NCBI RefSeq assembly: GCF_012843875.1
Contig: NZ_JABAFY010000009.1
Location: forward strand, 1 to 64,000
Reading direction: 5' to 3'
DNA length: 64,000 bases
Source: Desulfovibrio piger
GTDB lineage: Bacteria > Desulfobacterota > Desulfovibrionia > Desulfovibrionales > Desulfovibrionaceae
Shown: positions 24,611 to 53,440 of the stretch, one piece after another
Numbering within the stretch: position 1 is the first letter of the stretch
Layout: each line of letters begins with the position of its first letter
The notes under the pieces: generated by a model
Databases searched by the model: none
What the model saw: the letters and a program-made list of their open reading frames with translations, nothing else
Told to the model about the DNA's origin: nothing
Translations under genes and position numbers: made by a program

Positions 24611-24625
24611 TGGCACGCTGTTTGC
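24611..24625 (+). promoter_or_regulatory. Sigma-54 promoter of the TauE-sulfotransferase-transporter operon
   Basis: TGGCAC (24611-24616), 5 bases, TTGC (24622-24625): a perfect -24/-12 element. Transcription should start near 24636. This rules out the GTG at 24633 as a start codon and supports the ATG at 24660. Confidence 0.92.
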
Positions 24626-24659
24626 TTAACTTGTGAACAACATCACATCGGAGCAAATC

Positions 24660-28540: not shown

Positions 28541-30454
28541 ATGTTGTCTACTTCCTTTTCCTTCGCCTTCGTTTCGAACTCCGCTGTGGTGGCAGAAAAG
28601 GTCCAGACCTATGCCCAGGAGCATGGGTGGCCGCTGGAAGAAGTCCGTCTGGCTACCATGGAAGAGGCGCTGCCCGTGGCCAAACAATTGTTCGACCAGG
28701 GTGTGGATGTGATCCTGGGCGGCGGCGGAACCGGGAAGCTCCTGCGCCGTCATCTGAACGAACCCGTCGTCACCATCTCCCGGAGCCATATGTCCATCTT
28801 GCAGGCCCTGATGGAAGCCCGCGAATATACGGACAATGTGGCCGTGACATGCTATAACGCCACCCCCCCCTGGTCGGAACTGTTCTCCCGCCTGCTGCAC
28901 ATCCGCCTGCAGCCTATCCGTTTCACCAACTCCCGGGAACTGACCCTGGGCATCACCCAGGCCATCGCCCAGGGCGCCGGCTGCGTCGTGGGGGGCGGCG
29001 TCTGCGTCTCCATCGCGCAGGCCCACCACTGCCCGGGCATCGTGGTCTGTCCGGGCAACGAGGCCCTGGAACGGGCCTTCGAGGAAGCGTCCAACATCGC
29101 CCAGGCCCGCCGCCGTGACCGCGAACACGCGGCCTGGCTCCAGGACGTGGTCGATGCCCTCCATGAAGGCGTCATAGGCATAGATCCCACAGGCAAGCTG
29201 GCCATCAGCAATCCCGTGGCCCGGCAGGCCCTGGGACAAAAGCGCCTCCAGGACGGATGGGCACTGCAGCACCTTGGCCTTACCGAAAGCCTGGAAACGG
29301 GCAGGCCCACGGAAGGTACCCTGAAAGGGGAGAACGGCCAGGATCTTGTTTTCACCAGCAGCGCCGTAGTGGTCGACGGAGTCCAGAAAGGGGCCCTGAG
29401 CGTCCTGACGCCCGACGTGGTCCTCACGGACCTGCAGCGGCGGCTCAAGCACTCCCGTCAGGCAGGCTTGCGGGCCAGGTTCACGCTGAACGACCTGCTG
29501 GGCGAAAGCCCTTCCATGCGGACCCTGCGGGTACACGCGCAGCGTTTCGCCGACTCAGACGCAGGGATCTACATCCACGGGGAAAGCGGGACAGGCAAGG
29601 AACTGCTGGCCCACGCCATCCACAACGCCAGTCCCAGGCGCCACGCGGCCTTCGTGGCCGTCAACTGCGGTGCCCTGCCGGAAAGCCTGCTGGAAAGCGA
29701 ACTGTTCGGCTATGCCGAAGGGGCGTTCACCGGCGCCCGCCGCGGCGGCAAGCAGGGCCTGTTCGAACTGGCACAGGACGGCACCATCTTCCTGGACGAG
29801 ATCGCGGACATCAGCGCCGCCGTACAGGTCAGGCTCCTGCGCGTCCTGGAAAGCGGCGAGATCTTCCGCCTTGGCGGGGACAGGCCCGTGACCGTCAACG
29901 CGCGAGTGGTCTGCTCATCCTGGAAAGACCTCGTGTGCGAGGTCAGGGAGGGACGCTTCCGTGCCGACCTTTACTACCGCCTGACGCTGCTGCGCCTGGA
30001 GATGCCGCCCCTGCGCGAGCGCCTCCAGGACATGACCCTGCTGGTCCGGCATATCCTGCGCCGCATGGGCATGATCCACAAGAAAATGACCCCGGAAGCC
30101 ATCGAGCTCCTTTGCAGCTATCCCTGGCCCGGCAACGTGCGCGAACTGGATGCGCTGCTGCGCCGCTACTGCCTGATGTCCACCAGCGATGCCTGCCAGA
30201 TCCCCCTGCTGCGGGAACTCCTGCTCGACATGCGCCAGACCCAGGGCATCCTGGCAGCCCCCCCCAGGACGACCGAGGCCCATAAGGAGCAGGATCTGCC
30301 CGAGAGCGGCAGCTTGCGCCAGCGCCTGCGGCTGATGGAAAAAAAGATCATCCGCCAGGAACTGGCCCGCCAGCAGTACAGCAAAAAAAGCACGGCCAAA
30401 TCCCTGGGCATCAGCCTCAATACCCTCTGGCGCAAGATGTACGCTGCCGACTAA
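28541..30454 (+). CDS. Sigma-54-dependent activator with PrpR_N sensor and PAS domain
   Basis: 637 residues. A PrpR_N-type sensor occupies about 1-185 (GVDVILGGGGTGKLLRRHLNEPVV is typical), a PAS domain about 195-290, and the AAA+ domain about 318-540, with Walker A GESGTGKE (347-354), intact GAFTGA (394-399) and Walker B GTIFLDEI (414-421). A Fis-type HTH ends the protein (KKSTAKSLGISLNTLWRKM). Start chosen at MLSTSFSF with AGGAGA upstream. It lies just downstream of the operon whose promoter is a perfect -24/-12 site, and is its most likely activator. PrpR_N domains bind small organic acids or CoA-related ligands; the ligand here is unknown. Confidence 0.9.
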   Translation: MLSTSFSFAFVSNSAVVAEKVQTYAQEHGWPLEEVRLATMEEALPVAKQLFDQGVDVILGGGGTGKLLRRHLNEPVVTISRSHMSILQALMEAREYTDNVAVTCYNATPPWSELFSRLLHIRLQPIRFTNSRELTLGITQAIAQGAGCVVGGGVCVSIAQAHHCPGIVVCPGNEALERAFEEASNIAQARRRDREHAAWLQDVVDALHEGVIGIDPTGKLAISNPVARQALGQKRLQDGWALQHLGLTESLETGRPTEGTLKGENGQDLVFTSSAVVVDGVQKGALSVLTPDVVLTDLQRRLKHSRQAGLRARFTLNDLLGESPSMRTLRVHAQRFADSDAGIYIHGESGTGKELLAHAIHNASPRRHAAFVAVNCGALPESLLESELFGYAEGAFTGARRGGKQGLFELAQDGTIFLDEIADISAAVQVRLLRVLESGEIFRLGGDRPVTVNARVVCSSWKDLVCEVREGRFRADLYYRLTLLRLEMPPLRERLQDMTLLVRHILRRMGMIHKKMTPEAIELLCSYPWPGNVRELDALLRRYCLMSTSDACQIPLLRELLLDMRQTQGILAAPPRTTEAHKEQDLPESGSLRQRLRLMEKKIIRQELARQQYSKKSTAKSLGISLNTLWRKMYAAD

Positions 30455-38697: not shown

Positions 38698-40077
38698 CTA
38701 ATGCCCGGTGATGGCGTATTTCTTGAGCTTGTACTGCAAAAGGCTCTTGGAGATGCCCAGCAGCTCGGCGGCCTTGACCTGCACCAGATCGGCGCGTACC
38801 AGCGCGCGGCGAATGAGGGCGGCCTCGATCTTCTCCAGGGTATCGGCCAGGTCCAGCTGTACGGGCAACAGGTCCACGGCGCTCTTGAACTGCGAATCCT
38901 CGTCCCGGATCTCGGCGGGCAGGTTGTCCACGTCGATGACCGTACCGGGCACCAGCACCATGCAGGACTCCACCACGTTCTCCAGCTGGCGGATATTGCC
39001 GGGCCACTCGTAGCCGCTCAGGTAGTTGAGGGCCTCGGTGGTGAACTTTTTGGCCGGCATGTCGTTCTCGCGCGCCACCTTGTCCATGAAGTGGGCCACC
39101 AGCAGCGGGATGTCCTCCCGGCGCTCGCGCAAGGCCGGCAGAGGGATCTGCACCACATTCAGGCGGTAGTAGAGGTCATCGCGGAAGGTGCCCTTCTCCA
39201 CCATGGCGGCCAGATCCTTGTTGGTGGCGGCCACCACGCGGATGTCCACCTCGATCTCCTCACCGCCGCCCACGCGCTCGAAACGGCGCTCCTGCAGCAC
39301 ACGCAGCAGCTTGACCTGCAGATCGGGCGTCAGTTCGGCGATCTCATCCAAAAAGAGCGTACCGCCGTCGGCCTGCTCGAAACGGCCGCGCCGCATGGCC
39401 ACGGCACCGGTGAAGGAGCCTTTTTCATGGCCGAAGAGCTCGCTCTCCAGCACGCCGGGGTTGAGGGCCATGCAGTTGACCGAGACGAAGGGCTTTTCCT
39501 TGCGCGGGCTGGCGTAATGGATGGCGCGGGCCACCAGTTCCTTGCCCGTGCCCGACTCGCCGGTGATGAGCACCGTGGAGCGGCTGGGCGCGGCACGGTC
39601 CACCATGACCAGCACATCGCGGATGGCGCGGCTGCGGCCCACGATCTGGTGCACGCTGTAGCGCTCTTCCATGGCTTCCTGCAGCAGGCGGTACTGCCGG
39701 TGGGCGCGGGCCAGCTCCGTGGCGTTGTGGATGGAGAGCAGCAGCTCGTCGTTGGAGAACGGCTTGGTGATGTAGTCGAAGGCCCCGTATTTCATGGCCT
39801 CCACGGCGCTTTCGATGGAGCCGAAGGCCGTCATGATGAGCACCGGGATGTAGGGCCAGCTCTTCTTCACATGCTGGAGCACCTCACGCCCGGAGACCTT
39901 GGGCATCTTCATGTCCGTCACCACCACGTCCACCTCGCTCTCGGCCAGGAAGGCCAGGGCCGTCTCGGGGTCGCTGATGGCGGTGACGGTGTAGCCCTCA
40001 TCCTCAAGCAGGGTCTGCAACACCAGCAGGTAGTTTTTTTCGTCGTCGATGACCAGAATATGCGATTTGTCACTCAT
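38698..40077 (-). CDS. NtrC/AtoC-type sigma-54 response regulator
   Basis: 459 residues. The receiver domain has Asp11-Asp12, phosphoacceptor Asp55 ([10 protein letters not shown]) and Lys105. The AAA+ domain has Walker A GESGTGKE (173-180), a GSFTGA loop (220-225) in place of GAFTGA, and Walker [14 protein letters not shown] Fis-type HTH closes the protein ([22 protein letters not shown]). It activates sigma-54 promoters when phosphorylated, presumably by the kinase encoded just upstream. GSFTGA is a natural variant still able to contact sigma-54. Targets unknown. Confidence 0.92.
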
Positions 40078-45937: not shown

Positions 45938-46528
45938 TTACTTCTTGAAGATGTTGGTGCGGGTGATGTTCATGAACCGCAGGGCCTGATGCTTGGCATT
46001 TTCCTTGTAGTACATGCGGACTTCGTCACCGGCTTCCCAGGTGGCCGGGGGCAGGTCGATCTTGTCAGCGGGGATGGTGAAGGTCACCAGGGCCTGCAGG
46101 CGGGCCGAGTATTCGGTCACAGACATCTTGTCCTTGTCGATGATGGGGAAGGTCTTGCCGTGCACCTTGGGATGGGTGCGCTTGATGCCCTTCTCAACAT
46201 CGGTGAACTGCACGTTCAGGACTTCCAGAGCCTTGGTCTCGGGGTTGAAGATGGTGACGGTGGACTTTTCCAGGTCGAACATCACGCGGCCGCCGGGAAC
46301 GGGCAGGGGACCGATTTCAGACGGATCGGCAGGCAGGGTGTACTCATGGACGCCGCCGGAGTAGTGGGGGTTGCGCTGGTCATGATTGACGTCCAGCACC
46401 ACCAGAAGAGTTTTGGTTTCCGGATTGAAGGCCACGCAGCGGCCCTGTTCCACCTGGCCAAATTCGCACGCGGTCAGACCGAGGCTGAGAGCCAGTACCA
46501 GAGTCAGAATTACGTTACGCATTCTCAT
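45938..46528 (-). CDS. Periplasmic lipoprotein of the sigma-54 TauE operon (DUF4881-like)
   Basis: 196 residues with a lipoprotein signal (VLALSLGLTAC, lipidated Cys21). The rest is a soluble domain with LVVLDVNHDQRNPHYSGGVHEYTLPADPSEIGPLP and repeated FNPETK words (34-39 and 154-region), suggesting beta-rich repeats. Family function unknown. It follows the TauE gene by 11 bases with AAGGAGG upstream and is the last gene of the operon. My recollection is that such lipoproteins accompany this TauE type in other Desulfovibrio; that needs checking. Confidence 0.8.
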   Translation of the reverse strand: MRMRNVILTLVLALSLGLTACEFGQVEQGRCVAFNPETKTLLVVLDVNHDQRNPHYSGGVHEYTLPADPSEIGPLPVPGGRVMFDLEKSTVTIFNPETKALEVLNVQFTDVEKGIKRTHPKVHGKTFPIIDKDKMSVTEYSARLQALVTFTIPADKIDLPPATWEAGDEVRMYYKENAKHQALRFMNITRTNIFKK

Positions 46529-46539
46529 GTGCTGCCTCC

Positions 46540-47595
46540 TTACGCCTGGCGCTTCTTGGCGGCCAGTTCAGCCTTGGCGCCCTGAACCATACGGACGGTG
46601 ATGTAGAGGGAGATGGCGCTCACGAAGCCCAGAACCACCACGGTAGCCACGCCGTTGATGAAGCCGGCATAGGCGGGGAAGTAGGGCTGGATGAGCTTCA
46701 GGACCACGGAAGCGAGGCAGCCGATGACGGCGCAGCCGAAGGCGATACGGATGCCGTAACCCTTGATGTACTTGGTGGCAACAGCACCGATCTGGGCACC
46801 GATGGCGGCACCGACCAGCATGATGAGGGCGGCCACGAGTTCAGTACGCCCCTTGAAGGTGAAGGAAGCGGCGCCGTACAGGCCGGAGATGGCCACTTCG
46901 AAGAGGTCCGTACCCACGGCCACGTGGGTGGGGCAACCGACCAGGTACACCAGGGCGGGCATGCGGATCAGACCGCCGCCGATGCCGAGGATACCGGCCA
47001 GCCAGCCAGTGAACAGGGAGACCGCGATGGGCAGCCAGGCGGAGCAGTAGATACCGGCGCCGTGGAAGTGCACCATGGGGGGAATGCGGATGGCGTGCAG
47101 CTTGGAGGCCCAGTCGATACCGGTGGCGGTAGCGGAGAGCTCTTCACCGCGGGCGGCGGCTTCGCGTTCCTTCTTCTTGCGCAGGGCCACGTCATGGAAG
47201 ACCATCCAGGCCATGCAGATCAGCAGCACGACGTACAGCCAGCGCACGACCTTGTCGACGGAACCCAGGCGTTCCAGCCACATCAGCATCTGGGCGCCCA
47301 GTTCCACGCCCACGATGGTACCGACCAGCATGGTCAGGCCGAGCTTGTAGTCAACGTTGCCGAACTTGCCGTGCCGCAGGGTCGAGATCAGGGATTTGCC
47401 GGCCATGTGGGCAACGTCCGTGCCCACGGCGAAGGCCATGGGGAAGCCGAGGATGTTCAGACCGGGGGTAACCATCCAGGCACCGCCCATACCAAAGAAA
47501 CCACCGATGATGCCGACGCCGAGACCCAGAATGATCAGACCGGGCCAGAAAATCGTCACGCCGGAGATGGGCATCAAAACATACAACCAATCCAT
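46540..47595 (-). CDS. TauE/SafE-family permease (second copy)
   Basis: 351 residues, about eight helices. Repeat motifs GIIGGFFGMGGAWMVTPGLNILG and GWLAGILGIGGGLIRMPALVYLVG, with the characteristic AVGTDVAHMAGKS and AVGTDLFEVAISGLYG. It is about 100 residues longer than the first TauE copy, largely through a central charged loop (KKKEREAAARGEELSATATG). It likely exports sulfite or another sulfur or carbon anion. Middle gene between a small membrane protein and a lipoprotein under a sigma-54 promoter. Confidence 0.9.
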   Translation of the reverse strand: MDWLYVLMPISGVTIFWPGLIILGLGVGIIGGFFGMGGAWMVTPGLNILGFPMAFAVGTDVAHMAGKSLISTLRHGKFGNVDYKLGLTMLVGTIVGVELGAQMLMWLERLGSVDKVVRWLYVVLLICMAWMVFHDVALRKKKEREAAARGEELSATATGIDWASKLHAIRIPPMVHFHGAGIYCSAWLPIAVSLFTGWLAGILGIGGGLIRMPALVYLVGCPTHVAVGTDLFEVAISGLYGAASFTFKGRTELVAALIMLVGAAIGAQIGAVATKYIKGYGIRIAFGCAVIGCLASVVLKLIQPYFPAYAGFINGVATVVVLGFVSAISLYITVRMVQGAKAELAAKKRQA

Positions 47596-47613: not shown

Positions 47614-47919
47614 CTAGTGTTCAGCCAGCTCGCGGTGCTTGAGGTCGATACCGATGTGCGACATCACAACGTCGGCCAGGAAGCCGAAGATGCAGCCGAC
47701 CGTCGGGATGATGATGATGGTCAGGATGGTGAAGTACAGATGACTGTCATTGTACATCTGCGCCCACCACAGCATGATACCGTCCAGGCGGCGGGTATCG
47801 GCCACGATGACCACGTTTGCCGCCGCCTTCTTGGCTGCCAGGGCCAGGGAAGGCATCATGACCAGCAGCATGACGAAGCTGCCCGCAATAGCTGTCCAGA
47901 GCTTGCGCATCATTTTCAT
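47614..47919 (-). CDS. Small membrane protein, first gene of the second TauE operon
   Basis: 101 residues. A signal-like first helix (IAGSFVMLLVMMPSLALA, possible cleavage after ALA), a short loop with DTRRLDGIMLWWAQMYNDSHLY, and a second helix (FTILTIIIIPTVGCIFGFLADVVMSHIG). Function unknown; it may be a subunit of the TauE permease encoded 18 bases downstream. GGAGGAG precedes the ATG. Confidence 0.82.
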   Translation of the reverse strand: MKMMRKLWTAIAGSFVMLLVMMPSLALAAKKAAANVVIVADTRRLDGIMLWWAQMYNDSHLYFTILTIIIIPTVGCIFGFLADVVMSHIGIDLKHRELAEH

Positions 47920-48007
47920 GTTCTCCTCCGGGTCTTGGGGTTGTTACATCCAGATCCTGCGTCCCACGGCAGGACCATTCGTCCCAAACTTCACATGCTC
48001 GTTTTAA

Positions 48008-48022
48008 GCAACACCCGTGCCA
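48008..48022 (-). promoter_or_regulatory. Sigma-54 promoter of the second TauE operon
   Basis: On the minus strand TGGCAC (48017-48022), 5 bases, TTGC (48008-48011): a perfect -24/-12 element. The transcript should start near 47997, about 78 bases before the first gene. Confidence 0.92.
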
Positions 48023-48080
48023 ATTTCGCTAAAAAACCCGGGAATCCTTGATTACCAACACTGCCAAGCGTTTTTCCTCT

Positions 48081-48095
48081 TGCGCAAACTGCGCA
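48081..48095. promoter_or_regulatory. Candidate activator site upstream of the second sigma-54 promoter
   Basis: TGCGCA-AAC-TGCGCA: a self-complementary hexamer repeated after 3 bases, about 60 bases upstream of the -24 element and also within the leader of the divergent activator gene. Confidence 0.45.
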
Positions 48096-48149
48096 TTGCG
48101 GATAGATTTTCAGGAAAGTTGCACGTTTTTTGCGTTATCGGGAGGACGT

Positions 48150-50717
48150 ATGCGCATCTGGACCAGACCCGTCCTGGGAAATTCGCTGGAAACCACCCGG
48201 TTCTTCGTCAACCGCAGCATGACAAGCCGGGTGCTTTTGCTCGGTTTACCGCTTTTGACGCTGGTTTTATTACTTGTTTTCCTCGCAACGGGACGCAGTA
48301 TCGAAGCCATGGTCAATCGCGCAATAGCCCGCAATGCCCAGTTGCATGCCCAGGCCATGAGCCTTTCGCTTGAGCAAATTCTCACAGAGACCCGAAACCA
48401 GCTCCTCATCCTGGCCGCGGGTTCCATGGAGCCCAAGGACATGGTACGGCGTCTCCAGTTCCGCGTGCGTGCCGAGGGCCTGCGCTATCGCGAGGTGGCC
48501 TTCATGGGCACGGATCCCTCCCAGCGCTATCTGCTGCTCAGCTACGGGGGCGAGATCATCTCCATCCCTCCCGATATCGCCTCCGCCACCGTGGGCAACC
48601 CCTTCACCAGCCTGAGCGCGGCCCAGCGGCCCGGCCATGTGCAGGTCAGCCAGCCCCTGGAAGTGGTCTATTCCATGGTCCCGCTCAACGATTCCGTGCA
48701 AAGCATCCCCCTTTACGTCATCCGCTTCTCCACGCCCATCTACGACAGCCAGGGCGTCTTTCAGGGCATGCTCATCCTTTCTCTGGACCTGACCGTCCTG
48801 CGCGACGCCATCAGCATGTTCTCGTCGTCGTCCGCTCCCCTGCGCACCGCCGACGACGAGACCCGCATCCGCAGCATCTTTTTCGACAACCAGGGCTGGA
48901 TGCTCTTCCAGTCCGAGAATCTGGAGGCGGACGATGCCAGCGGCCGCCTCAACAGCGACTCGCTGCGCGCCGGCTTCCAGGGCGAGTTCGGCCGCGCCGG
49001 CTTCAGCACCGCCTTCCGGCCAGGCTCCAACCACGTCAATTACTGGTCCATGGTCTCCAACGTCCAGAGCGGGCATTCCGGCCAGATCTTCCTGGACAAC
49101 GGCGATGCCTGGGGCCATGGGGACAACGCCGTGGAAGGCGTCAGCTTCGCGCCCGTCACCTTTACCGCCAACCCGGACAGCCCGCACACCATCGTAGGCG
49201 GCCTGGCCGTGCTGGACACCAGCTTCACCGCCACCCGCACCGGCATCCAGATCATCGGCATCTACGGCATCTGCCTGCTGGCCGGCATCTGCCTGCTGGG
49301 CCTGGGCCTGGCCTGGCTGGCACGCGGCACCACCAAGCGCCTGCGCCGCCTGTCCAATGAAGTGAACATGCGCATCGACAGCCACAGCTCCAACCCGCTG
49401 GTGCTGCCGCCCATGCCCCGGGAGCTCGAACAGCTCAAGGATGCCATCAACGCCCTGCTCCACCGCCTGCGCCGCAGCGAGGAGGAACAGCTCAACCAGC
49501 AGCTCATGCAGGACGCCCGCTGGGCCCGCGAACCAGCCGAGAACATGCCGGAGCTGGACGACATCCCCGAAAACGGCCTTGTGGGCACCTCCGCCGCCAT
49601 GCAGGACCTGCGCGCCAACTTCCTCAAGGCCGCGCCCACCATGGCCGACGTCCTCGTCATCGGCGAGACGGGCACCGGCAAGGAGCTTGTCTCGGCGGCC
49701 ATCCACCAGGCCAGCCCCCGGGCCAACGGCCCCTTCATCACCATCAACTGCGGTGCCCTGGACGAGAACCTGCTCATGGATACCCTGTTCGGCCACGTCA
49801 AGGGCGCCTTCACCGAGGCGCGCCAGCCCCGCAAGGGCGCCTTCCTCACGGCCGAGGGCGGCACCCTGATGCTGGACGAGATCGGCAACGCGGCCCCCAA
49901 GGTCCAGCAGGCCCTGCTGCGGGCGCTCTCCACCCGCATGATCCGCCCGCTGGGCAGCGACGAGGACGTGCCTTTCGATACCCGCATCATCGCCGCCACC
50001 AACGCGGAGCTGTTGCAGGACGCCCAGGAAGGTTCCTTCCGCGAGGACCTCTATTACCGTCTGGCCGTCATCACCATCCGCACGCCCCCCCTGCGCCGCC
50101 GCAAGTCCGACCTGCCCCTGCTGGCCGTCTTTTTCCTGACCCGGGCCGCGGAATCCCAGGGCCTGCCCACGCCGCGCCTCAGCCGCGGCGCCCTGCGCAA
50201 GCTCCAGGAATACCACTGGCCGGGCAACGTGCGCGAGCTGCAGAACTGCCTGACCCGGGCCCTGGCTTTTTGCGAAAATGGCCTCATTTTTGCAGAAAAC
50301 ATCCAGTTGGGACCGGATACCCTTCCCGGAGACATTGCGCGACCGGAACGCGGCAAGCTCTCCTGCCCGCCCGCACGGGCCGACAGCAGGCAGCCCCACG
50401 GCGAGGCTGCGGAAACGGCAGAAAGTCCTGTTGCCCAGCCCGTTCCGGCCGAAAGCGAGGATCAGGGCGCGATGCCCGCTGCGGAAGATGCCCAGCCGCG
50501 CCTCAATGCCCGTCTTGCCCGTCTGCTGCCCCAGATAGTGGAGCTCGGCAGCATCAGCCGGCAGGAATATCAGGACATGGCAGGCAAGGACATCTCCATG
50601 CGTACCGCCCAGTACGACCTGCAGATCCTGGTCCGTCTGGGCCTTGTCCGCAGGGAAGGGCGCGGCCCGGCCCAACGCTATATAGTGTTGCCGGCAGCAC
50701 GCGGGTTCCGCGCCTGA
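48150..50717 (+). CDS. Membrane-anchored sigma-54 activator with extracytoplasmic sensor
   Basis: 855 residues from MRIWTRPVLG, fixed by GGGAGGA; the frame extends upstream without support. Helices at about 28-47 and 367-390 flank a 315-residue extracytoplasmic sensor. A HAMP domain (391-445) follows, then AAA+ (476-705) with Walker A GETGTGKE (505-512), GAFTEA (552-557) in place of GAFTGA, and Walker B GGTLMLDEIGNA. A linker leads to a C-terminal winged-helix-like domain (SISRQEYQDMAGKDISMRTAQYDLQILVRLGLVRREG) rather than the usual Fis HTH. It is divergent from the second TauE operon, whose promoter is sigma-54 type, and is its most likely activator. Confidence 0.88.
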   Translation: MRIWTRPVLGNSLETTRFFVNRSMTSRVLLLGLPLLTLVLLLVFLATGRSIEAMVNRAIARNAQLHAQAMSLSLEQILTETRNQLLILAAGSMEPKDMVRRLQFRVRAEGLRYREVAFMGTDPSQRYLLLSYGGEIISIPPDIASATVGNPFTSLSAAQRPGHVQVSQPLEVVYSMVPLNDSVQSIPLYVIRFSTPIYDSQGVFQGMLILSLDLTVLRDAISMFSSSSAPLRTADDETRIRSIFFDNQGWMLFQSENLEADDASGRLNSDSLRAGFQGEFGRAGFSTAFRPGSNHVNYWSMVSNVQSGHSGQIFLDNGDAWGHGDNAVEGVSFAPVTFTANPDSPHTIVGGLAVLDTSFTATRTGIQIIGIYGICLLAGICLLGLGLAWLARGTTKRLRRLSNEVNMRIDSHSSNPLVLPPMPRELEQLKDAINALLHRLRRSEEEQLNQQLMQDARWAREPAENMPELDDIPENGLVGTSAAMQDLRANFLKAAPTMADVLVIGETGTGKELVSAAIHQASPRANGPFITINCGALDENLLMDTLFGHVKGAFTEARQPRKGAFLTAEGGTLMLDEIGNAAPKVQQALLRALSTRMIRPLGSDEDVPFDTRIIAATNAELLQDAQEGSFREDLYYRLAVITIRTPPLRRRKSDLPLLAVFFLTRAAESQGLPTPRLSRGALRKLQEYHWPGNVRELQNCLTRALAFCENGLIFAENIQLGPDTLPGDIARPERGKLSCPPARADSRQPHGEAAETAESPVAQPVPAESEDQGAMPAAEDAQPRLNARLARLLPQIVELGSISRQEYQDMAGKDISMRTAQYDLQILVRLGLVRREGRGPAQRYIVLPAARGFRA

Positions 50718-50869: not shown

Positions 50870-53440
50870 ATGACCACGACCATCAAGACTCTCAAACGCC
50901 TGTTTGGCCTGGAGCCGCGCATCAGCCGCGAGCAGGCCATGGCCGCTTTTGGCCGTCGCTACGCCTCCTTCAACGAGCTGCTCCAGTCCAATGCGGACCT
51001 GGCCGCCATCCTGGCCAAGCTGGACGTGGCCCAGCGCGGCGACAAGCATCTGGAGACCCATCAGGTACGGCGCATCGCCCGCAAGGCGGTCTTCCACTGC
51101 GAACGCATGGCGGCCTGCCTCAACGACATGTCGCGCAACCGCTACAAGGATCTGGAAAAAAGCGTGGCTGCCATCGGGCGGCACATCGAGAACGAGCTGG
51201 AGAAGCATACCCGCGGCGACGTCAATGCGCTCATCCTGCCCCTGACGGAAGTGGACGCCAGCATGGGCTACAGCGTGGGCGGCAAGAACGCCAACCTGGG
51301 CGAACTGAGCAACATGCTGGACATGCCCGTTCCCCCCGGCTTCGCGGTCACCATCCAGGCCAGCAGCCTGGCCCTGCTGCGTCCCAGCGGCCTGTTCAAG
51401 AAGATCCATTCCACCTTGTGCAAGGTGGACGCCGACGTGCCTCACAGCCTGCAGGACGCTGCCCGTACCGTGCAGAACCTGATCCTGGAAGCCCCTCTGC
51501 CCGAAGAAGTGGAAAAAGCCCTGCTCGACGGCTGGGACGAAGCTTTCGGCAAGGACAGCCAGGTACAGGCCGCCCTGCGCTCCAGTGCCGTGGACGAGGA
51601 CGGGGTGCAGTCCTTTGCCGGCCAGTACCTGAGCATCCTCGGCGTCACGCGCGAGAGCCTGCCCACGGCCTTCAAGCGCGTGCTGGCCAGTCTGTTCTCG
51701 CCCCGTGCCCTGGCCTACCGCGCCCGCAACGGCTATCCGCTGGACGCCACCAGCATGGGCATGTGCTGTCTCAAGATGGTGCAGGCCAAGGCGGCCGGCG
51801 TGGCCTTCTCCCGGCATCCCGTGGACCTGCGCTCCAACTGCGTCATGATCCAGGGCACCTGGGGCCTGGGCGAGATGGTGGTGGACGGCACGGCCACCCC
51901 GGACAACTGGCTGGTCTCGCGCGCCAACCTGCGCATCCAGCAGGAGACCATCGCCCACAAGGAGGTCCGCCTCGTGCTGGCTCCCGGACGCCACGGCGTG
52001 GAGAGCAAGGAAGAGGACGTGCCCGAAAGCCTGCGCAACGTGCCCAGCCTGTCGCATGAGCAGGCGCAGCAGCTGGCCTCCATGGCGCTGGAACTGGAAC
52101 GCCACTACCAGTACCCGCAGGACGTGGAATGGGCCGTGGACGAAGACGACCAGATCATCCTGCTCCAGACCCGGCCCATGGGTCTGGACGCCTCGGTCAG
52201 CGAAGTGACGGCCCCGGCGCTCTCGCACCTGCGTCCCCTGCTCAGCGGCGGCGAAGTGGCGGCCAAGGGCGTGGGCTGCGGCCCCGTCATCCATGTGCAT
52301 CCTTCGCATGACCTCACCCACTTCCCCGAAGGCGCGGTCATGCTCCTGCAGCACACCTCGCCCGACGCCATGGTGGCCATGCAGCGGGCCTCGGCCATCA
52401 TCGCCGAGACGGGCAGCCTTACCGGTCACATGGCGTCTGTCTGCCGTGAATTCGGCATGCCCACGGTCATCAACCTGCCCGGTGCCACCAGTTTGCTGGA
52501 AGAAGGCGAGGTCGTCACCGTGGATGCCATCGGCGGGCGCGTGTTCAAGGGCGAGATCCCCGAGCTGCTGGCCCTGCGCCTGCAACCCCGCCGTCCCGCC
52601 GCGGATACCCAGGCCCTGATCCTGCTGCGCCGCATCGCCAGCTACATCATGCCCCTGCATCTGGTGGACCCGCATTCGGAGCTCTTCAGCCCGGCCAACT
52701 GCACCTCGCTGCACGACGTCATGCGTTATGCCCATGAAAAAAGCTACAGCGAGATGTTCCTCATCTCCGACAGCGTCACCGAGGGCAGCATGGGCGCGGC
52801 CAGCCAGCTGGTCTGTCCGGTGCCGCTGGACCTGTACGTCATCGACCTCGGCGGCGGCCTCAAGAATCCCGAGTCCCGCCGCGTCACGCCCGAGGACGTC
52901 ATCAGCGAGCCCTTCGCCGAAGTGCTGTCCGGCATGCTCAATCCTGCCGTCCAGGCCCGTGGGCCCCGCCCCATCAACATGCGCGGCTTCCTGTCCGTCA
53001 TGAGCCAGAACATGAGCGGCGGCAACCAGCAGGGCGGCCAGCGTTTCGGCGACCGCAGCTACGCCATCGTCTCGGACCGTTACGTGAACTTCTCCTCGCG
53101 CGTGGGCTACCACTACGCCATCCTGGACAGCTGGTGCGGCGAGACCCTGAGCAAGAACTACATCCGCTTCGAATTCGCCGGCGGTGCGGCCGGCAGCGTG
53201 CAGCGCGAACGGCGCGTGCGCTGCATCGGGGTCATCCTGACGGAGCTGGGCTTTACTGTAGAAATAGTAGGCGACCGTATCCGCGCCCGCTACCAGAAGT
53301 ACCCCCGGCTGGATGTCCTCTCGCGCCTGGACCAGCTGGGCCGCCTGCTCATCATGACCCGCCAGATGGACATGCTCATGACCTCCGATGCGGCCGTACA
53401 CGGCTATGCCATGAAATTCCTCAACGGCGAATATCACTGA
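50870..53440 (+). CDS. PEP-synthase/PPDK-like protein with a non-standard C-terminal domain
   Basis: 856 residues from MTTTIKTLKR with AAGGAAG upstream. An N-terminal helical region (1-120) precedes the ATP-grasp pyruvate/PEP-kinase domain (about 130-440; VGGKNANLGELS, RSSAVDEDGVQSFAGQY, LLQTRP). The phosphohistidine swivel domain (about 460-565) carries candidate His520 in AETGSLTGHMASVCREFGMPTV. The usual C-terminal TIM barrel that binds PEP/pyruvate is absent; instead residues 575-856 form a different domain (DLYVIDLGGGLKNPESRRVTPEDV, MSGGNQQGGQRFGDRSYAIVSDRYVNFSSRVGYHYAILD). It probably phosphorylates something other than pyruvate. Monocistronic, followed by a terminator. Confidence 0.8.
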   Translation: MTTTIKTLKRLFGLEPRISREQAMAAFGRRYASFNELLQSNADLAAILAKLDVAQRGDKHLETHQVRRIARKAVFHCERMAACLNDMSRNRYKDLEKSVAAIGRHIENELEKHTRGDVNALILPLTEVDASMGYSVGGKNANLGELSNMLDMPVPPGFAVTIQASSLALLRPSGLFKKIHSTLCKVDADVPHSLQDAARTVQNLILEAPLPEEVEKALLDGWDEAFGKDSQVQAALRSSAVDEDGVQSFAGQYLSILGVTRESLPTAFKRVLASLFSPRALAYRARNGYPLDATSMGMCCLKMVQAKAAGVAFSRHPVDLRSNCVMIQGTWGLGEMVVDGTATPDNWLVSRANLRIQQETIAHKEVRLVLAPGRHGVESKEEDVPESLRNVPSLSHEQAQQLASMALELERHYQYPQDVEWAVDEDDQIILLQTRPMGLDASVSEVTAPALSHLRPLLSGGEVAAKGVGCGPVIHVHPSHDLTHFPEGAVMLLQHTSPDAMVAMQRASAIIAETGSLTGHMASVCREFGMPTVINLPGATSLLEEGEVVTVDAIGGRVFKGEIPELLALRLQPRRPAADTQALILLRRIASYIMPLHLVDPHSELFSPANCTSLHDVMRYAHEKSYSEMFLISDSVTEGSMGAASQLVCPVPLDLYVIDLGGGLKNPESRRVTPEDVISEPFAEVLSGMLNPAVQARGPRPINMRGFLSVMSQNMSGGNQQGGQRFGDRSYAIVSDRYVNFSSRVGYHYAILDSWCGETLSKNYIRFEFAGGAAGSVQRERRVRCIGVILTELGFTVEIVGDRIRARYQKYPRLDVLSRLDQLGRLLIMTRQMDMLMTSDAAVHGYAMKFLNGEYH

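Follow-up and report, generated by a model that had tools for sequence, protein, structure and literature searches.

EBPs, the activators of sigma-54 promoters, are usually soluble proteins that end in a Fis-type HTH, and the Fis domain is all-helical. Four basic EBP architectures are distinguished in the accessible parts of Francke et al. 2011 (PMC3162934), two of which (Ia and Ib) have HTH_8 at the C-terminus. The closest described system is DVU0151 from D. vulgaris Hildenborough. In the portion of Kazakov et al. 2015 (PMC4641369) that was available, DVU0151 is presented as a single-component regulator with a GAFSEA loop and with DVU0150-DVU0146 as its target, an operon preceded by a divergent sigma-54 promoter. 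According to the same portion, DVU0151 is the sole D. vulgaris EBP without an annotated Fis-type HTH, a winged-helix model is matched by some of its orthologs, an unidentified sensing domain may lie in its long N-terminus, and the TSUP transporters have no known substrate. In our literature search, which covered few subscription papers, DVU0151 or DVU0145-DVU0150 appeared only in that study, and no other description of a winged-helix, membrane or one-component EBP was found; a prior one is possible. One further paper (PMC12194929) concerns, in its accessible part, a Cache histidine kinase.

Here we analyze an EBP of the DVU0151 kind encoded in a stretch of 64,000 nucleotides of Desulfovibrio piger DNA, hereafter called the window. 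Its reading frame of 855 aa is free of internal stops (Table 1), and D. piger ATCC 29098 carries a copy (L090) with 96% identity. The domain order is predicted to be TM - dCache - TM - weak HAMP - sigma-54 AAA+ - winged helix, and the protein fits none of the four architectures in the accessible text of Francke et al. fully. For comparison we assembled relatives from 64 loci and retained 58 full-length rows after dropping six: L091 and L098, which are short and both have GAFTEA, and L122, L136, L146 and L153, which are short and in which Walker A was not found.

Table 1 Features of the EBP gene and its surroundings in the window.
Feature	Position	Strand	Basis
Membrane-anchored EBP of the DVU0151 kind, 855 aa	48150..50717	+	Translation, Pfam
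First transmembrane helix, ~residues 26-47	48225..48290	+	Hydropathy peak 2.96 at residue 28
Predicted periplasmic dCache sensor, ~residues 48-366	48291..49247	+	AlphaFold2, Foldseek, structural alignment
Second transmembrane helix, ~residues 367-388	49248..49313	+	Hydropathy peak 2.37 at residue 368
HAMP-like segment, residues 389-442, weak	49314..49475	+	Pfam, below cut-off
Sigma-54 AAA+ domain and lid, residues 477-718	49578..50303	+	PF00158 9.9e-60, AAA_lid_14 1.5e-19
GAFTEA loop, residues 552-557	49803..49820	+	Alignment
Predicted C-terminal winged helix, ~residues 782-855	50493..50714	+	AlphaFold2
Sigma-54 promoter TGGCACGGGTGTTGCT of the divergent operon	48007..48022	-	-24/-12 pattern match
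Candidate half-site TTGCGCAA for an activator, 58-65 bp upstream of -24	48080..48087	.	Putative role, from relatives
Degenerate candidate site TTGCAC...TTGCGTTA	48119..48137	.	Putative, read by comparison with relatives
Opening gene of the divergent operon, DVU0150 family	47614..47919	-	NF040783 E 1.5e-45
TauE/SafE (TSUP) permease, presumed target operon	46540..47595	-	PF01925 E 3.6e-44
DUF4881 protein, presumed target operon	45938..46528	-	PF16222 E 1.1e-71

The initial annotation had proposed that two helices and a HAMP domain place a 315-residue sensor outside the cytoplasm. The topology part of this proposal stands: Kyte-Doolittle maxima over 19-mers give two hydrophobic peaks that enclose ~319 residues, which are predicted to fold as dCache (see below), and both peaks are kept in 57 of 58 full-length relatives. 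Since Arg/Lys-rich stretches, identified by eye, flank the TM pair on its outer sides, the sensor loop is predicted to be periplasmic. The HAMP assignment is sub-threshold, with 15.6 bits in the whole protein and 19.4 bits for the segment alone against a Pfam cut-off of 25; a HAMP match at E<=0.05 was obtained for 9/26 aligned sequences, the window protein among them (best 9.8e-9). That a sensor, an ATPase and a DNA-binding end are combined in one single protein, as also proposed, is borne out at the level of predicted architecture only.

The C-terminus had been read as a winged helix rather than the standard Fis HTH, and both the sequence search and an AlphaFold2 prediction of the last 86 residues agree with this reading. 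The model of residues 770-855, based on 48 sequences (pLDDT 86.5, ~95 over the core; pTM 0.73), combines three helices with a beta hairpin. The best Foldseek matches are winged-helix proteins, none of them below E 0.001, and include AspA (3.3e-3), ArsR and MarR types, and DIP2311. VIA-align of the model with a MepR-like protein gave Z 10.1 and an rmsd of 3.1 over 75 aligned residues, and many MarR members scored equally well. HTH_8 (Fis) is not among the Pfam matches listed at E<=0.1 for the whole protein, and we rejected a Fis fold at the C-terminus in view of the HMM search and the predicted fold. As a control, HTH_8 was found in 12/14 EBPs of the window genome, the two without a match being the 855-aa EBP and C76, the latter Fis-like by eye. 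A profile of the C-terminus gave no match to PDB sequences at E<=5. The motifs RTAxYDL and GxGxxxxY are invariant (except x) in 26 as well as in 48 aligned C-termini, and residues 782-846 have a mean identity of 54.5%, second only to the AAA+ domain, while the linker of ~60 residues before the winged helix is variable with a mean identity of 13%. The C-terminal fold is now predicted, which goes beyond the earlier profile match.

Structure prediction also supported the proposed external sensor and assigned its type. AlphaFold2 folded residues 44-372 (52 sequences; pLDDT 84.4, pTM 0.84) as a double-Cache domain with a long N-terminal helix and two Cache modules. Foldseek matched the predicted sensor to TlpA with E 1.7e-8, and structural alignment of the sensor with TlpA (9kpj) gave Z 19.0 and an rmsd of 3.2 over 251 aligned residues. 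The dCache_1 model is sub-threshold in the window protein (23 bits vs a cut-off of 45) and matches 41/52 aligned sensor sequences at E<=0.01. On these models the N-terminus is a membrane-spanning dCache domain, which is new compared with the 2015 description. The best-matched receptors bind differing ligands, judged by their structure titles; because of these differences and the ~10% identity to the sensor, we claim no ligand. The dCache amino-acid sensors have a motif containing RxWY; in this simplified form the motif is absent from residues 48-366. The sole match of a sensor profile to PDB sequences was beta-lactoglobulin (E 0.083), which we took as chance.

By its composition the protein belongs to the EBPs: it has an AAA+ domain with Walker A, Walker B and lid, a loop whose E at position 5 is listed as putatively functional, and a -24/-12 element nearby, and the window genome contains one sigma-54 gene. 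The AAA+ domain scores 228 bits to NifA 9qq6 and 222 bits to ZraR 1ojl, and Walker A, Walker B and WPGNVREL are largely kept among the 58 relatives. The GAFTEA loop was read in the translation at residues 552-557, exactly where the initial annotation had placed it. An alignment of the 58 full-length relatives gave 36 GAFTEA, 10 GAFSEA, 9 GAYTEA, 2 GAFSDA and 1 degenerate loop (SSVTEA in L134), with position 5 acidic in 57/58. Twenty further loci yielded 17 readable frames, nine of them from outside the order, and all 17 have E at position 5. Two loci, L162 and L163, have GAHSEA, where histidine replaces the loop phenylalanine; the accessible part of Francke et al. 2011 (PMC3162934) lists tyrosine as the sole working replacement at this position. 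Judged by these alignments, the acidic loop residue is a fixed trait of the DVU0151-like family. It is not tied to the winged helix itself: 11 winged-helix EBPs outside the family (see below) have GAFTGA or GAFSGA. GAFTEA alone is unremarkable, given the reported variants and the GAFTHA and GAYTNA loops that are also present in other EBPs of the same genome.

The acidic position 5 throughout the family could nevertheless mean that sigma-54 activation has been lost from the AAA+ domain, as in TyrR or VpsR, and that regulation takes another route, and the available text of Francke et al. 2011 (PMC3162934) does report that single loop changes, chiefly of F and T, lower activity and in most cases eliminate it. 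We regard such a loss as improbable, since F or Y at position 3 and T or S at position 4 are kept in 57/58 relatives, since D at position 5 is functional in FlgR and E putatively functional (same source, same portion), and since a -24/-12 match faces the divergent gene in 40/58 relatives. Activation of sigma-54 by the GAFTEA loop is the reading that we carry forward.

The initial annotation had named a promoter at 48008-48022. The -24/-12 element at this place lies on the minus strand (48022-48007), is directed away from the EBP gene and faces the divergent gene starting at 47919. The exact pattern TGGCAYN5TTGCW occurs 2 times in the window vs 0.27 expected, a number reached in 5/100 shuffles, and 21 times in the genome vs 7 for the reversed control. 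The count of 40/58 for the divergent strand was obtained with a degenerate pattern and without a chance control on the relatives; by the same pattern 18/58 have no -24/-12 match. The second exact match in the window, TGGCACGCTGTTTGCT, is found at 24611-24626 (+), and two further EBPs are encoded in the window at 29495-29998 (+) and 39145-39645 (-).

The arrangement of the regulator and its presumed target operon is widely conserved. A divergent DVU0150-family gene is found in 54/58 relatives, and TauE in 54/58; among the four without DVU0150, L114 and L134 have little or no upstream sequence, and L147 and L149 were negative at E 1e-4. Among 150 genomes of the order, 72 have DVU0150_fam and 86 have a relative of the EBP (E<=1e-80), with both in 66, DVU0150_fam alone in 6 (G036, G163, G010, G057, G094 and G106, all without a listed regulator relative at this threshold) and the regulator alone in 20. 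The 20/86 order genomes without DVU0150_fam show that the pairing is not universal, and with 14 EBPs in the genome (from 16 matches, less two weak ones to AAA proteins that are not EBPs) one could imagine that another EBP drives the divergent operon and that the 855-aa EBP acts elsewhere. This appears slightly less probable still than a loss of activation, in view of the divergent placement in 54/58 relatives and of the four genomes with two DVU0150 genes (G061, G113, G149 and G174), in which each copy adjoins its own divergent regulator (4/4). We therefore keep the divergent operon as the presumed target of the 855-aa EBP.

On the other side of the regulator, the gene at 50870-53440 (+) encodes a product with PPDK_N and PEP-utilizers mobile domains, the last 300 residues of which matched nothing in Pfam. 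A gene of this type lies downstream on the same strand in 40/58 relatives. From its sequence the product looks like a cut-down PEP-synthase-like protein, which may share the signal or the transcript of the regulator.

If the winged helix selects a DNA site, such a site would be expected upstream of the -24 element. In the 40 relatives with a promoter match, the half-site TTGCRYRA occurs 70 times in the 200 bp upstream of -24, 19 times in the next bin and 0 to 9 times in each of the 14 remaining bins, with 9 in the one that holds the promoter and the sequence downstream of it (200-bp bins from -1000 to +2200, each place counted once). The total of 88 vs 5.3 in shuffled sequences (largest of 50 shuffles 11) is partly circular and scores the palindrome TTGCGCAA twice, and for these reasons we relied on the positional count; as the half-site was picked from the same sequences, what is informative is where its copies cluster. 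Just one complete TTGCRYRA half-site is present in the window. In the window genome a half-site lies within 200 bp upstream of 4/21 sigma-54-like sites, the promoter at 48022-48007 included, and the palindrome is found at that promoter alone. Because the candidate DNA site adjoins the start of the regulator's own gene, self-repression might occur. The degenerate candidate site listed in Table 1 adjoins the ribosome-binding site of the EBP gene, and some relatives have TTGCGC-N6-GCGCAA at the equivalent place. An earlier site model, the inverted TTGCGC-N4-8-GCGCAA, was abandoned, as it reached a shuffle p<=0.05 in only 6/34 loci, a set that excludes the six loci used to spot the inverted site and in which 5/6 positives are closely related by shared sites.

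The half-site was thus derived from the same sequences in which it was counted, it is weak in the window, and the linker that leads to the winged helix shows little conservation (mean identity 13%), all of which would suit a sigma-54 activator that acts by protein contacts, with half-sites that belong to another regulator and a winged helix that does not select a site. We find this no more probable than the loss of activation considered above. The invariant RTAxYDL and GxGxxxxY and the conservation of residues 782-846 argue against it, as do the half-sites themselves, which are located where activator sites are expected.

Collectively, these data most probably describe a membrane-anchored one-component EBP of the DVU0151 kind that would respond to a periplasmic signal, bind at TTGCRYRA, open the promoter at 48022-48007 and turn on the DVU0150-TauE-DUF4881 operon. 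In such a mechanism a small molecule, free or on a periplasmic carrier protein, would bind the dCache sensor, and helix movement would be relayed via the second TM and the HAMP-like segment; on reaching the AAA+ domain it would lead this domain to assemble its ring. The winged helix, on its variable linker, would hold the protein at the half-sites between the divergent genes, and ATP hydrolysis together with the GAFTEA loop would open the sigma-54 promoter and so turn on the operon. The domain order, the predicted folds, the promoter match and the conserved divergent neighbourhood were computed; ligand binding, the direction of regulation, the DNA site and activation we infer.

Related winged helices are found outside the family as well. 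A profile of the C-terminus matched at E<=0.01 in 79 of 297 genomes of the phylum. We picked 40 listed matches, omitting frames of at least 800 aa that resemble the DVU0151-like family; 11 of them, all EBPs, have both Walker A and GAF[TS]GA (L175, L177, L178, L179, L181, L182, L186, L187, L188, L197 and L198), another 7 were assigned to the Fic proteins by motif, and among the remaining ones are HATPase_c_4 proteins (3/3 Pfam-checked). All six Pfam-checked members of these 11 EBPs have a receiver and a sigma-54 domain and are response regulators. As response-regulator EBPs also end in a related helix, winged-helix EBPs exist in at least two builds. An AAA+ tree of 31 rows contained 12 DVU0151-like proteins (the window protein and 11/12 picked relatives), 10/11 of the response-regulator type and 9/13 Fis EBPs of the same genome, several of the latter on long branches; L152, L187, L007, L010, L011 and L013 are missing because the pattern missed the domain. 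The tree separates the two builds and places three Fis types of the window's own genome beside the response regulators (88/97). Joining the builds is not rejected on this tree (p-AU 0.063), so that the helix may have been gained either once or twice. Winged-helix EBPs may constitute a separate class within the phylum, with two builds or more (one-component with a membrane dCache, and response regulator), the winged helix replacing Fis separately in each, and with a membrane build in which a periplasmic signal would open a sigma-54 promoter through one membrane-resident protein; we consider the chances for this wider proposal to be evenly balanced.

With an AAA+ ring held at the membrane by its own sensor, one can test whether ring formation and access to the promoter are possible from there in the absence of a partner kinase. 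The DVU0151-like family likewise makes the need for Fis in ring assembly testable, and its conserved target operon offers a ready reporter.

Compared with known systems, the window protein shares its AAA+ domain with EBPs of the NtrC/NifA/ZraR type, but those end in a Fis HTH, whereas the window protein has two transmembrane helices and an acidic GAFTGA variant. Regulators of the CadC/ToxR type are likewise one-component, membrane-bound proteins with a winged helix and a periplasmic sensor; unlike the window protein they carry the winged helix at the N-terminus and have neither an AAA+ ATPase nor a connection to sigma-54. The HATPase_c_4 and Fic proteins mentioned above have a related C-terminal winged helix, but fused to unrelated domains. 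The sensor has the same predicted fold as TlpA and TlpC from H. pylori and TlpQ from P. aeruginosa (Z ~18-19, 239-251 residues aligned) at just 9-11% sequence identity, and the output of those receptors is chemotaxis, whereas that of the window protein would be transcription. FlgR from Campylobacter has an acidic position 5 as well and is listed without a DNA-binding domain in the accessible part of Francke et al. 2011 (PMC3162934).

DVU0151 and its orthologs, as far as the available portion of Kazakov et al. 2015 (PMC4641369) describes them, are most alike: one-component EBPs with an acidic position 5, no Fis, a winged-helix match and a divergent promoter, all of which recur here, with the promoter in front of a DVU0150 operon. 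Because that study described these features of DVU0151, the finding is known in outline. The likeness is drawn from the published description and gene context. The two proteins differ in the loop (GAFSEA vs GAFTEA) and in the N-terminus, which was left as a possible unknown sensor in DVU0151 and is assigned here to a predicted membrane-spanning dCache domain. To the published outline we add the sensor type, the predicted folds, the fixed acidic residue, the divergent DVU0150 gene in 54/58 relatives, the half-site clustering and the wider spread of the winged helix. In its architecture the protein departs further from the usual EBP than the published description conveys, and the mechanism is one that we infer.
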